The translations under genes were made by a program, and so were the position numbers. A DNA stretch of 46,950 bases from an uncultured bacterium (GTDB taxonomy: Bacteria; Bacillota; Clostridia; Lachnospirales; Lachnospiraceae), in contig CANCXX010000035.1 in the NCBI GenBank assembly GCA_947381965.1, positions 1 to 46,950 of the forward strand. The letters are read 5' to 3'. Below the pieces are notes generated by a model. The model had not been told where the DNA came from. It saw only the letters and a list, made by a program, of their open reading frames with translations, and made no database searches. Position 1 is the stretch's first letter. Every line of letters starts with the position of its first letter. This document shows positions 13,872-46,950 of this stretch, piece after piece.

Positions 13872-14318
13872 ATGACGGTAAGAACAATGACCATAGAGGA
13901 TTACCAGGGGGTATATGCCTTATGGATGAGCATTAAAGGCTTTGCCATGCGGAGCCTGGATGATTCTAAAGAGGGAGTAGAGCGTTTTTTGAAAAGAAAC
14001 CCCGGTATCAGTGTGGTAGCGTTGGAGGATGGGAAGATTGTGGGGAGCATTTTGGGCGGTCACGATGGAAGAAGGGGATGTCTTTATCATGTGTGCGTTC
14101 ACGAGGACTATCGGATGAGAGGAATTGGAAAAAGCATGGTAGTTCACTGCATGGAGGCTTTGGAAAAGGAACATATCAGTAAGGTTTCCCTGATTGCCTT
14201 TACTCAAAACGATGTGGGAAATGCCTTTTGGAAAGAAATTGGCTGGACCAAAAGAGAGGATTTGAATTACTATGATTTTGTTCTGAACCACAACAACATT
14301 GTGAAATTTAACCAATAA
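13872..14318 (+). CDS. GNAT family N-acetyltransferase (YpeA-like)
   Basis: Protein of 148 residues with a complete GNAT fold. Strand-helix TIEDYQGVYALW leads in, VALEDGKIVGSILGG forms the central strands, HVCVHEDYRMRGIGKSMV holds the acetyl-CoA loop (R-x-x-G-I-G-K at about 84-90), and NAFWKEIGWTKRED forms the C-terminal arm. The ATG at 13872 matches usual family starts; an in-frame TTG at 13848 also has an AGGAG 8 nt upstream, so a longer form cannot be excluded. It lies within the arginine operon. A role in acetylglutamate supply is possible but unproven, because argJ is present. Confidence 0.88.
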   Translation: MTVRTMTIEDYQGVYALWMSIKGFAMRSLDDSKEGVERFLKRNPGISVVALEDGKIVGSILGGHDGRRGCLYHVCVHEDYRMRGIGKSMVVHCMEALEKEHISKVSLIAFTQNDVGNAFWKEIGWTKREDLNYYDFVLNHNNIVKFNQ

Positions 14319-14343
14319 ATTTTTCAGCAGAAGGCACAAGAAA

Positions 14344-14557
14344 CGGTACTGGAAAACAGCGAAGGTCCCCGGAGGCGCCCAGAGAAAAACAGTATGAGAA
14401 GCAGACGGTTTTTCTCTGAGGAAGAAGGCGCCGGAGGGGATAGGAGCGGTACTGGAAAACAGCGAAGGTCCCCGGAGGCGCCCAGAGAAAAACAGTATGA
14501 GAAGCAGACGGTTTTTCTCTGAGGAAGAAGGCGCCGGAGGGGATAGGAGCGGTACTG
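14344..14557 (+). repeat. Tandem array of a 103-bp structured repeat before argJ
   Basis: Two identical 103-bp units (14344-14446 and 14447-14549) are followed by the first 8 bases of a third (CGGTACTG, 14550-14557). Across the unit junction, GGCGCC-GGA-GGGGA (14427-14440) pairs with TCCCC-GGA-GGCGCC (14469-14482), with a GGA/GGA internal loop. This stem encloses the conserved loop GGTACTGGAAAACA (14448-14461). Inside each unit CAGAGAAAAAC pairs with GTTTTTCTCTG (first copy 14380-14390 with 14408-14418). The array ends 4 nt before the argJ ribosome binding site. Related elements lie at 27496-27704 and 46897-46950. Confidence 0.9.
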
Positions 14558-14571
14558 AAATGGAGGAAAAA

Positions 14572-15795
14572 ATGAGAGCGATAACAGGCGGTGTAACAGC
14601 GGCGAAGGGATTCGAGGCAGCAGGCATAGAGGCAGCCATTAAATATCAGGACAGGAAAGACATGGCCATGATTTACAGCAAAAGGCCCTGCGTACTGGCA
14701 GGAACCTTTACCAGCAATGTGGTAAAGGCAGCTCCGGTTTTATGGGACAAAAAGGTGGTGGAGGAATCTCCTTACGGGCAGGCGGTAATCGTCAATGCAG
14801 GGATTGCCAATGCAGGTACAGGAAAAGAAGGGTACGAATACTGTCTAAGGACAGCAGCTAAGGCTTCCGAATGTCTGGATATACCAAAGGAGGCGGTGCT
14901 TGTGGCTTCCACCGGAGTGATTGGAATGCAGCTGCCCATAGAAAGGATTGAAGCAGGGGTTTTAAAGCTTGCAAAGGAAAAATCGGATACCATTGAGGCA
15001 GGAACAGAGGCAGCCTCAGCAATTATGACCACAGACACCCGTTTAAAACAGGCGGCGGCAGAGATTGAGGTTGGCGGCGTAACGGTGACCCTTGGGGGCA
15101 TGAGCAAAGGCTCTGGCATGATCCATCCCAATATGTGTACCATGCTTGCCTTTGTGACCACTGACGCGGTGATATCCAAAGAACTTTTGACAAAGGCGGT
15201 TAAAGAGGATGTAACAGATACTTTTAATATGATTTCCGTAGACGGGGACACTTCAACCAACGATACATTGCTTGTAATGGCAAATGGCATGGCCCAAAAC
15301 CCGGAAATCAAAGAAGGAACGCCGGAATATGAGGCGTTTAAAGAGGCTCTCCGCTATGTGAATGAATCTCTCGCCAAAATGATGGCAGGCGACGGAGAGG
15401 GGGCGACGGCTCTTTATGAGGCAAAGGTAATGGGGGCCGCCACAAAGGAGGATGCACGGAAATTAAGCAAGTCTATGGTAAGCTCCAGCCTCTGCAAGGC
15501 AGCAATTTATGGGCATGATGCCAACTGGGGCCGGTTTTTGTGTGCTCTTGGATATGCGGGCGTAGACTTTGACCCGGAAAAGACAGAGCTTTTCTTTGAA
15601 AGCAGCGCAGGAAAAATACAGGTCTATAAAGCGGGAATGACAGCGCCTTACAGCGAAGAGGAAGCAGGCAGAATTTTATCGGAGCCCAGGGTAACAGTTC
15701 TGGCGGATATGAACATGGGTAACGAGACAGCCACAGCATGGGGATGTGATTTAACTTATGATTATGTGAAAATAAACGCAGATTACAGAAGCTGA
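14572..15795 (+). CDS. argJ: Bifunctional ornithine/glutamate N-acetyltransferase
   Basis: Transfers acetyl from N-acetylornithine to glutamate, recycling the acetyl group; many homologues also make acetylglutamate from acetyl-CoA. The protein has 407 residues. The autocleavage site lies in KGSGMIHPNMCTMLAF: Thr190 would become the nucleophile of the beta chain. The residue before it is Cys189, where Ala is more common. FTSNVVKAAP, NAGIANAGTG and SVDGDTSTNDT are other family blocks. The ATG at 14572 has GGAGG 5 nt upstream. Earlier in-frame starts lie within the repeat array and are rejected. No argA is needed if the enzyme is bifunctional. Confidence 0.95.
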   Translation: MRAITGGVTAAKGFEAAGIEAAIKYQDRKDMAMIYSKRPCVLAGTFTSNVVKAAPVLWDKKVVEESPYGQAVIVNAGIANAGTGKEGYEYCLRTAAKASECLDIPKEAVLVASTGVIGMQLPIERIEAGVLKLAKEKSDTIEAGTEAASAIMTTDTRLKQAAAEIEVGGVTVTLGGMSKGSGMIHPNMCTMLAFVTTDAVISKELLTKAVKEDVTDTFNMISVDGDTSTNDTLLVMANGMAQNPEIKEGTPEYEAFKEALRYVNESLAKMMAGDGEGATALYEAKVMGAATKEDARKLSKSMVSSSLCKAAIYGHDANWGRFLCALGYAGVDFDPEKTELFFESSAGKIQVYKAGMTAPYSEEEAGRILSEPRVTVLADMNMGNETATAWGCDLTYDYVKINADYRS

Positions 15796-27489: not shown

Positions 27490-27495
27490 AAAGTA

Positions 27496-27704
27496 GAACT
27501 GGAAAACAGCAGCCGCCCGGTCATTCCCAGACAGATGATGGACACGAAGAGTGTACATAATTTGTCACGGAAAAGGGAATGAAAGGGTGGATGCGGAACT
27601 GGAAAACAGCAGCCGCCCGATCATTCCCAGACAGATGATGGACACGAAGAGTGTACATAATTTGTCACGGAAAAGGGAATGAAAGGGTGGATGCGGAACT
27701 GGAA
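27496..27704 (+). repeat. Tandem array of a 100-bp structured repeat between holA and the Nudix gene
   Basis: Two 100-bp units (27496-27595 and 27596-27695), differing at one base (G27520 versus A27620), are followed by a partial third (GAACTGGAA, 27696-27704). Across the junction GGGAATGA-AA-GGGTGG (27575-27590) pairs with CCGCCC-GA-TCATTCCC (27613-27628), including one G-T pair. The stem encloses TGC/GCA and the loop GGAACTGGAAAACA (27595-27608). CCCAGAC follows the stem. The array ends 5 nt before the AAAGGA of the Nudix gene. Loop and layout match the array at 14344 although the stems are unrelated in sequence. Confidence 0.9.
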
Positions 27705-27719
27705 TAAGAAAGGATAATC

Positions 27720-28781
27720 ATGAAAAGTAATTTAACAACTTTGTGTTATATTGAAAGGGACAATCAGTATTTGATGCTTCACAGGATTTCCAAGAAGAAT
27801 GATGTCAATAAGGATAAATGGATAGGTATAGGAGGACATTTTGAAGGGGATGAAAGCCCGGAGGATTGTCTTTTACGGGAAGCTAGGGAGGAAACGGGAC
27901 TTACGCTTACCTCTTATTGTTTTCGGGGAATTGTCACCTTTTGTTTTGAGGGGCATCCGGCAGAGTACATGTGTCTTTATACAGCAGATGGTTTTGAAGG
28001 CACTTTAAAGGCATGTGATGAAGGAAAGCTTGAATGGGTGGATAAGGATACTGTTTTCGGACTGAACTTATGGGATGGGGATATTTTCTTTTTGGATTTA
28101 CTGGATAAGGAAATTCCCTTTTTTTCCTTAAAATTATGCTATCGTAAGGATTGCTCATGGTATCGGGGAGTGTTTAACGGAAGGGAGCTGGAGCTTTTGG
28201 ATCTTTGTGGCGGGGACGGGCAGCCCACAGGCCATGTGAAAGAGAGAAGTATGGTGCACAGGGATGGAGATTTTCACAGAACTGTGCATATATGGGTTGT
28301 CAGAAAAAGAGCAGACGGCGGTATAGATATACTTTTACAAAAGCGAAGCAAAAAAAAGGATGCCTATCCGGGATGCTATGATATTTCGTCAGCAGGACAT
28401 GTACTTGCAGGAGATGATTTTGAAACTTCCGCTTTGCGGGAAATGGAAGAAGAGCTCGGTATTCGGGCGGAAAAAGAGGACTTAAGATTTATTGGTTTTC
28501 ATGAGGGATACATAGAGGCGGTTTTTTGGGGGCAGATTTTTAAGGATTGGGAGATCAGTGCGGTATATCTTTATGAAAAGCCAGTGGATTCTGAAACTTT
28601 GTCATTGCAGGAAAGTGAAGTGGAGGAAGTGGTTTTTATGGACTATGATACAGCAAATGAGAAAATAAAATCAGGGAACATGCCAAGTTGTATTTACCCG
28701 GAGGAGTTTACACTTATCAGAAATGCCCTGAAACCCGGATTCTGTGCGGATGGCGTCTGGATTAAGGAAAAGATTTTATAA
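27720..28781 (+). CDS. Double Nudix-domain hydrolase
   Basis: Protein of 353 residues fusing two Nudix domains. The first (about 1-145) resembles MutT-type 8-oxo-dGTP diphosphatases, with the full box GHFEGDESPEDCLLREAREETGL at 39-61. The second (about 160-345) resembles the Nudix proteins related to isopentenyl-diphosphate isomerase (FHRTVHIWVV, LLQKRSKKKDAYPGCYD); its box GHVLAGDD-x6-REMEEELGI has Asp where the first Glu is usual but keeps the metal-binding REMEEE. AAAGGA lies 6 nt before the ATG. A role in nucleotide clean-up or in hydrolysing another diphosphate is possible. Substrates are not predictable. Confidence 0.88.
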   Translation: MKSNLTTLCYIERDNQYLMLHRISKKNDVNKDKWIGIGGHFEGDESPEDCLLREAREETGLTLTSYCFRGIVTFCFEGHPAEYMCLYTADGFEGTLKACDEGKLEWVDKDTVFGLNLWDGDIFFLDLLDKEIPFFSLKLCYRKDCSWYRGVFNGRELELLDLCGGDGQPTGHVKERSMVHRDGDFHRTVHIWVVRKRADGGIDILLQKRSKKKDAYPGCYDISSAGHVLAGDDFETSALREMEEELGIRAEKEDLRFIGFHEGYIEAVFWGQIFKDWEISAVYLYEKPVDSETLSLQESEVEEVVFMDYDTANEKIKSGNMPSCIYPEEFTLIRNALKPGFCADGVWIKEKIL

Positions 28782-46824: not shown

Positions 46825-46833
46825 TGCTATAAT
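46825..46833 (+). promoter_or_regulatory. Extended -10 promoter before the structured element at the window end
   Basis: TGCTATAAT (46825-46833) is a consensus extended -10; the -35 region is only T-rich. The transcript would start near 46840 and run through the hairpin at 46897-46938. No protein start was seen before the window ends. Confidence 0.5.
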
Positions 46834-46896
46834 AATCCAAATTTGTCTCTCAGTCAGACCTGAACCGGTTACTTGTGCAGTGGGAAAAGGGAGTAG

Positions 46897-46950
46897 GCGA
46901 GGACAATTACGGAACAGGAAAACAGTAATAGTCCTCGCAAGCGCCCAGAA
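46897..46950 (+). ncRNA. Structured element with loop GGAACAGGAAAACA, cut by the window edge
   Basis: GCGAGGAC (46897-46904) pairs with GTCCTCGC (46931-46938) and ATTAC (46906-46910) with GTAAT (46925-46929), with an A/A mismatch between. The loop is GGAACAGGAAAACA (46911-46924), closed by C-G, and GCGCCCAGAA follows. Loop, closing pair and 3' CCCAGA match the arrays at 14344 and 27496 while the stem bases differ. The upstream extended -10 suggests it may be transcribed on its own. The 3' end is outside the window. An RNA product is inferred. Confidence 0.6.

Follow-up and report, generated by a model that had tools for sequence, protein, structure and literature searches.

The window analysed here, a 46,950-nt stretch that makes up a whole contig (C35) of a draft Lachnospiraceae genome (G000, hereafter the own genome; 4.3 Mb, 92 contigs), carries members of a family of structured repeats that sit directly in front of genes. 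The repeat unit is about 105 nt long and corresponds to one long hairpin; linkers separate neighbouring units, which sometimes lie head to tail. The family was gained in particular lineages, has grown in tandem, recurs as near-identical units at different loci, keeps its fold through covarying changes, and is placed in a single orientation at the Shine-Dalgarno sequence (SD) of the gene that follows. Our preferred interpretation, which we hold to be probable rather than assured, is that the family is a non-autonomous, spreading leader-RNA module anchored on the SD, with a placement like that of MIRU repeats without being a MIRU; its movement and its action are what we infer.

A sequence-only reading of this DNA had pointed to a shared motif at three loci, and the sequence confirms it at all three: with up to two mismatches allowed, the motif matched the window 9 times against 1.61 expected, a number that 0 of 100 shuffles reached. 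Tandem Repeats Finder shows the loci at 14344-14557 and 27496-27704 to be tandem arrays, with periods of 103 and 100, respectively, and 2.1 copies each. Upstream of argJ, on the plus strand, unit 1 occupies 14345-14447 and comprises the linker GGTACTGGAAAACA (14345-14358) and a hairpin (14359-14447) delimited by the predicted fold and the 103-nt period, with a covariance-model match at 14345-14457 (103.8 bits). Unit 2 follows at 14448-14550 (linker 14448-14461, hairpin 14462-14550; match 14448-14560, 100.2 bits), and the terminal linker GGTACTGAAA (14551-14560) abuts the SD TGGAGG (14561-14566), the two together spanning 14551-14566. The gene itself lies at 14572-15795 on the plus strand and exceeds the cut-off of the NCBIfam ArgJ model at 479.5 bits. 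The second array, also on the plus strand, consists of unit 1 at 27495-27594 (linker 27495-27508, hairpin 27509-27594; match 27495-27604, 74.4 bits) and unit 2 at 27595-27694 (linker 27595-27608, hairpin 27609-27694; match 27595-27704, 78 bits), followed at 27695-27714 by the terminal linker GGAACTGGAA (27695-27704) and an SD-like AAAGGA (27709-27714). A plus-strand gene for a NUDIX-domain protein begins with the start codon at 27720 and extends to 28781 (Pfam NUDIX, 9.5e-32; no NCBIfam model over cut-off).

The contig ends within the third locus. A plus-strand left partial unit at 46881-46910 holds the 3′ arm only and resembles, by eye, the 3′ part of a unit on contig C21; it is followed at 46911-46950 by the linker GGAACAGGAAAACA (46911-46924) and the 5′ arm of the first unit, where the window stops. 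The final 55 bases of the window reappear on C21 at position 36; on that contig the model matches at 51-166 (102.2 bits) and the array continues to the start codon of glyA, which encodes serine hydroxymethyltransferase. A TATAAT-like box recognised by eye at 46828-46833 (plus strand) lies upstream, such that the glyA array is flanked by a promoter-like box and the SD; similar boxes occur in the glyA leaders of relatives, again by eye. At its other end the window begins within a minus-strand tRNA gene (1-53), whose Rfam match is cut off at the 3′ end.

The family is not confined to the three loci; it forms 76 array segments in the own genome. A covariance model built from 12 units (R1) gave 121 matches there at E ≤ 1, with 150 of 3803 candidates scored; we kept 114, dropping three C44 repeats of C14 and four weak or opposite-strand matches, and these merged into 29 segments with two or more units and 47 with one. 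In some cases an array split by contig ends is counted as two segments, as where the ends of C7 and C15 share an identical unit. Neighbouring units share 92-100% identity in arrays whose units are similar, and 84% in one array. C14 and C44 share similar stretches at distinct array positions, which fits a strain mixture or a duplication in the draft (7.31% contamination is listed). Of the 184 contig ends in the draft, about 20 by eye fall in or beside arrays (on C21, C35, C48, C44, C38, C52, C53, C27, C69, C43, C4, C33, C5, C15, C7, C22 and C55); the carrier assemblies therefore break at arrays, and true arrays are probably longer than they appear.

The 14-nt sequence described earlier as an invariant loop is neither invariant nor specific. 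Linkers of the types GGAACTTAAA, GGAACTATAA and GGAACTTTAA also occur, and the 14-mer alone matches the genome exactly at 20 places, three of which (L003, L006 and L007) appear by eye to be coding; with one mismatch there are 63 matches, against 8 for a reversed control pattern. We rejected the 14-mer as a sole marker of the family on account of its matches inside coding sequence. A loose regular expression for the linker was likewise discarded, as it gave false matches in the argJ and glyA leaders of relatives.

Folded singly, units mostly form one long hairpin with a GC-clamped outer stem, a purine internal loop, a middle stem resting on an inner stem, a bulge of about 8 nt on the 3′ side and a small apical loop. 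The stems quoted in the sequence-only reading are present and covary, but they are really the outer arms of this larger hairpin, each quoted stem joining the 3′ arm of a unit to the 5′ arm of the unit after it. A hairpin across GGWACWGGAAAACA was ruled out as the main fold by arm-pairing energies. The 5′ arm prefers the 3′ arm of its own unit in 19 of 23 pairs picked by regular expression from arrays with differing neighbours (some rows are false linkers), and over these 23 rows the mean pairing energy was -19.7 kcal/mol with the own arm, -12.0 with the arm of the previous unit and -10.2 with the arms of units drawn at random. In all 12 rows whose own-arm duplex reaches -25 kcal/mol or lower, the own arm is preferred, though this cut was picked post hoc and three loci appear twice in the set; C33:20187 and C82:1863 show own-arm pairing directly. 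The fixed "loop" is thus a linker between units, since 5′ arms pair better within their own unit. The loop between the outer and middle stems is purine-rich, with G.A and A.G commonest, and is 4 by 4 as measured (one mostly C-G pair included) in 85 of 112 units, and 8 nt is the commonest bulge size both elsewhere (54 of 112) and in the own genome (38 of 75).

We assessed covariation in two alignments, both fitted to R1 and with 12 of the 33 counted pairs absent from that model: A2, drawn from 69 loci of the own genome, and A3, drawn from 100 loci of other genomes (21 from whole genomes and 79 of 91 found by pattern). As these 79 loci were picked by pattern, the conservation of the linker in A3 is biased, while the stems are free of that selection. 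Across the 116 distinct units of A3, 90.7% of cells were paired, compared with 65.7% when shuffled and at most 40.5% when slid; two-sided changes occurred at 32 of the 33 pairs, and covariation was 0.575 against a control of 0.174. The 78 distinct rows of A2 gave 82.1% paired cells versus 70.4% shuffled and at most 40.3% slid, with two-sided changes at 30 pairs and covariation of 0.279 against 0.125. Structure-free couplings between columns (75 non-redundant units in A2, 112 in A3) were strongest mostly at nested pairs of the hairpin, and some strong couplings in A2 reflect two linkers changing together. Covariation beyond the shuffled and slid controls in both alignments is what a selected RNA fold predicts, and the search of Lachnospiraceae genomes with a covariance model, which had been suggested as a check, did find further copies with compensatory changes. 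The earlier observation is confirmed. Its interpretation is supported in part: the structured family and the selected fold are borne out, the exact hairpin is not.

That reading had left open whether the fold acts in RNA or in single-stranded DNA. G-U pairs outnumber A-C mismatches by 144 to 54 in A3 and by 65 to 31 in A2, where the make-up of the columns leads one to expect 380:308 and 209:146, respectively (ratios given without a p-value because the sequences are related), and this excess favours RNA of the sense strand. The same asymmetry bears on a mutational account of the covariation, in which template switching at quasi-palindromes would copy one arm onto the other with no selection on the fold. 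Two shared sites fit such a process, with more two-sided than one-sided changes: at L089 and L125 (MDKKRIEEM/MDIRRIEEM gene, 74% identity), 5 pairs changed on both sides, 2 on one side, and 4 are unpaired in at least one genome, and at L061 and L062 (MAEKKLVEA gene, 64% identity) the corresponding counts are 8, 0 and 6. However, the mismatched internal loop and the 8-nt bulge persist at the frequencies given above though correction of one arm by the other would erase them, nor would plain correction be expected to leave more G-U than A-C; we regard this account as quite unlikely.

The placement of the element is highly regular. All 66 segments uncut by contig ends (the remaining 10 of 76 are cut) are closely followed by an ORF on the same strand; in 65 of them an SD-like sequence comes straight after the last linker, and in one the ORF start has no SD-like sequence. 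The start codon lies 11-22 nt past the array in 64 of 65 cases, the exception being argJ, where the script settled on an ATG at -1 but +11 is the likely start. An upstream ORF on the same strand ends within 260 nt of 59 of the 76 segments, and within 40 nt of 48. In other genomes, where the test drew on 105 of 127 model matches, 80 of 101 tested elements have an ORF start 3-27 nt downstream; by eye, 14 of the other 21 run into another unit and seven (L083, L092, L113, L132, L149, L152 and L154) do not, although L149 has an SD and an ATG near a contig end. The sequence (A)TAGGAG directly follows 42 of 71 arrays, and TAGGAG occurs at 2 of 29 other genes in the window. The element does not bring UAGGAG to every site, since the SD reads TGGAGG at argJ and some others. 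Several individual loci depart from this pattern: at L219 (start of C27) and L211 (end of C53), both at contig ends, a common sequence TAGTCCAGCTAA-AAATGTCAATAG replaces the SD before a possible ATG, and at L132 and L152 the linker is repeated as short direct repeats of the AACTGGAATAA type downstream of the array, where the SD would be. At L061 and L062 the array stands between what resembles by eye the end of a T-box leader (L061 has no Rfam match at gathering threshold) and the SD of the gene MAEKKLVEAITSM, which we take to be proS.

Intercistronic, sense-oriented and often tandem copies at translation signals might suggest coupling in the manner of MIRU, with a short internal ORF feeding ribosomes to the next gene. 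We find this very hard to credit: the lengths of the 47 single units leave a remainder of 2 in 21 cases, 1 in 17 and 0 in 9 when divided by three, and with starts 11-22 nt past the array there is no overlap with a stop of the unit.

The right edge is thus fixed at the SD; the left edge is ragged, with left remnants of arrays ranging from 0 to 66 nt, a spread by which we rejected a fixed 5′ truncation. These ragged ends may reflect decay and not insertion, since several leftmost copies look interior-deleted by eye and the six longest remnants belong to arrays cut by contig ends.

The distribution of the family is patchy. R1 detected it in 11 of 98 genomes with the own genome included, namely 10 of 37 members of the genus plus one genome from outside it; carriers have between 1 and at least 38 elements each. 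A second model built from A3 (R2) found it in 9 of 397 genomes, representing 9 of 334 genera of the family Lachnospiraceae (own included), and in a class sample of 391 genomes only in the own genome; these counts are floors, as at most 38 candidates per genome were scored with R1 and at most 9 in each of the R2 samples. An exact pattern retrieved 91 stretches from GTDB contigs (the own genome possibly left out) titled Lachnospiraceae, Clostridia, Acetatifactor, Lachnoclostridium, [Clostridium] symbiosum and Blautia, among others. The same pattern had no match in viral contigs, nor did one array used as a query against phages and plasmids.

Comparison of equivalent sites indicates gain in particular lineages. 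We examined argJ and glyA in 29 relatives each, out of 36 in the genus, and none of the 58 regions matched R1 or R2 at E ≤ 0.1, the best scores below threshold being 15.8 bits (R1, L190, E 0.21) and 17.6 bits (R2, L200, E 0.13); the own argJ and glyA regions match at 77-104 bits. One genome outside the glyA set, G022, carries the element at glyA (L072). In G001 (9% sample plus earlier loci) we found six counterparts of array-bearing sites, of which dapB has an array in both genomes and five have none in G001, one of these with a different upstream layout by eye. The array-free argJ leaders of several relatives (within L178-L206) have a small hairpin just before GGAAARAGG, its stem letters varying; we discarded this combination as a mini-version of the element, as it is not repetitive and has 0-4 matches per genome, near the reversed control. 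Upstream of glyA in G006 (L285), a different palindrome-like repeat around GCTGCCACGCTCCGCGAGACAGCTTATTGAT occurs in the leader region, in more than one copy and in both directions.

Units also resemble one another across loci. Two neighbouring units at a W/Y-type tRNA synthetase gene each have a close counterpart elsewhere, one in a unit at a GNAT gene (96% alike) and the other in a unit at an aldolase gene (95% alike). Among genomes with three or more units, 120 of 184 units are most closely related to another unit of their genome, against 31.8 expected; the count is 52 of 109 without the own genome, which itself contributes 68 of 75. The pattern is uneven, and the counts of 0/6 in G022, 0/5 in CANSLJ, 0/4 in QXWV and 2/10 in BLLT count against our preferred interpretation.

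Alike units across loci and within genomes, together with the patchy distribution, would also be produced by purely selfish DNA, whose single-stranded hairpin is recognised by a transposase in the style of IS200/IS605 or REP-RAYT and which has no RNA function; a strand-specific target overlapping the SD would yield the single orientation. We consider this possible but doubtful. The G-U over A-C asymmetry favours RNA, the arms vary freely among copies, unlike conserved transposon ends, and Y1 transposases do not track carriers: they were found in 6 of 9 tested carriers versus 14 of 27 non-carriers in the genus, and not in the incomplete drafts of carriers G002, G016 and G021. Reverse transcriptases do not track them either (5 of 9 versus 18 of 27), being absent from the incomplete drafts of carriers G001, G006, G021 and G024, in which the enzyme may since have been lost. 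In these samples, which did not include G036 and G049, neither enzyme co-occurred with the element; no enzyme for movement thus emerged, which counts against our preferred interpretation as well. No target-site duplication could be delimited from the six G001 counterparts; the left edge of the arrays is ragged.

The family matches no RNA family described in Rfam 15, in agreement with the sequence-only reading, which knew of no riboswitch, ribozyme or attachment-site class with this loop. At gathering thresholds, the window and 10 family loci matched only tRNAs, and an E-value scan of 14300-14600 returned one lncRNA family at 13.1 bits, against its gathering score of 70. Literature searches covering titles and the starts of abstracts of top-ranked papers found no such family, which does not prove its absence from print; passages of PMC8040213 make no mention of it, and it may sit unnamed in the supplementary tables of that paper. 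Strong covariation, a recurrent asymmetric bulge and placement near the SD are features one might expect of a riboswitch or protein-binding regulatory RNA that answers to one ligand and controls a regulon, and tandem aptamers are known (PMC9481103). The genes downstream argue otherwise. Among 20 entries (19 distinct proteins of about 66) compared with NCBIfam and Pfam, we found no common function, and L044 had no Pfam match; the genes include those for ArgJ, serine hydroxymethyltransferase, IMP dehydrogenase, DeoC, DapB, NrdR, FabZ and asparagine synthase, as well as an aldolase, the W/Y tRNA synthetase, D-Ala-D-Ala ligase, an ABC transporter and others. Since presence is also patchy, with empty sites in relatives, a regulon under one ligand seems improbable.

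We return to the SD-anchored leader module as our preferred interpretation. Judging from position, each unit would be transcribed within an mRNA leader or the gap between genes of an operon, and its sense-strand RNA would fold as one long hairpin. Linkers of the GGAACUNNAA type part the units, and the last passes straight into the SD, often as (A)UAGGAG. The 3′ edge fixed at the SD, often UAGGAG, alongside a ragged left edge suggests that the 3′ edge is anchored on the SD at insertion, with the element bringing or reusing UAGGAG; with such anchoring the gene would retain a working SD, and insertion would be tolerated in one orientation only. Once inserted, the hairpins may act in cis as a spacer that holds the SD open and, for the cistron that follows, as a processing site or 5′ barrier. 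The openness of the SD-start region is predicted to be 0.613 with the element versus 0.519 with the flanks joined (57 loci), and accessibility of the SD is barely above that with a shuffled element (0.616 versus 0.592, p 0.03, 64 loci), which lends weak support to a spacer role. One may further postulate, more tentatively, that the leader RNA spreads itself: copies derived from transcribed leaders or from template switching might re-enter by annealing at the SD (UAGGAGG in the element, CCTCCTA on the target strand), which would account for the sense orientation, the fixed 3′ edge at the SD and the ragged 5′ edges. We hold this to be less likely than the module itself by a good deal; if true, Lachnospiraceae would carry hairpin arrays of adjustable copy number before housekeeping genes, as portable 5′ UTRs with their own SD.

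In heavy carriers, an abundant RNA-like structured family with no Rfam 15 match sits on the SDs of dozens of unrelated genes, some of them core metabolic. It offers a natural experiment in how RNA structure inserted at SD sites is tolerated or used, and differences in tandem copy number could adjust expression from strain to strain.

Several known systems resemble the family in part. MIRU repeats are tandem and intercistronic. Passages of PMC12548453 describe them as short, apparently mobile repeats at translation-initiation signals that do little harm to the gene, inserting at start codons with an internal ORF coupled to the gene at -4 nt. The present family is like them in being a short repeat that lies between genes at translation signals in the sense direction, as all 66 uncut segments do, and differs in that its edge lies at the SD, no internal ORF is kept (three does not divide the length of 38 of 47 single units) and its unit is a covarying hairpin. 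REP and REPIN sequences with RAYT are dispersed hairpins present in many copies per genome; Y1 transposases do not track carriers of our family. A reverse-transcriptase-driven element would call for the enzyme in carriers, and five of the nine tested have one. Tandem riboswitches are likewise structured units repeated in leaders (PMC9481103), although here the scanned downstream proteins have no common function and Rfam gives no match. ERIC, NEMIS and RUP are described in PMC2229807 as elements of about 100-200 bp, often intergenic, with transcripts that contain long stem-loops, with terminal inverted repeats and target duplications, and, for ERIC and NEMIS, with links to mRNA stability or RNase III processing. 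In place of conserved terminal inverted repeats, our family has outer arms that vary and covary between copies, and it keeps one orientation relative to the gene, often head to tail. It fits the definition of neither group, with MIRU its closest counterpart in placement and ERIC, NEMIS and RUP the closest in size and hairpin character.
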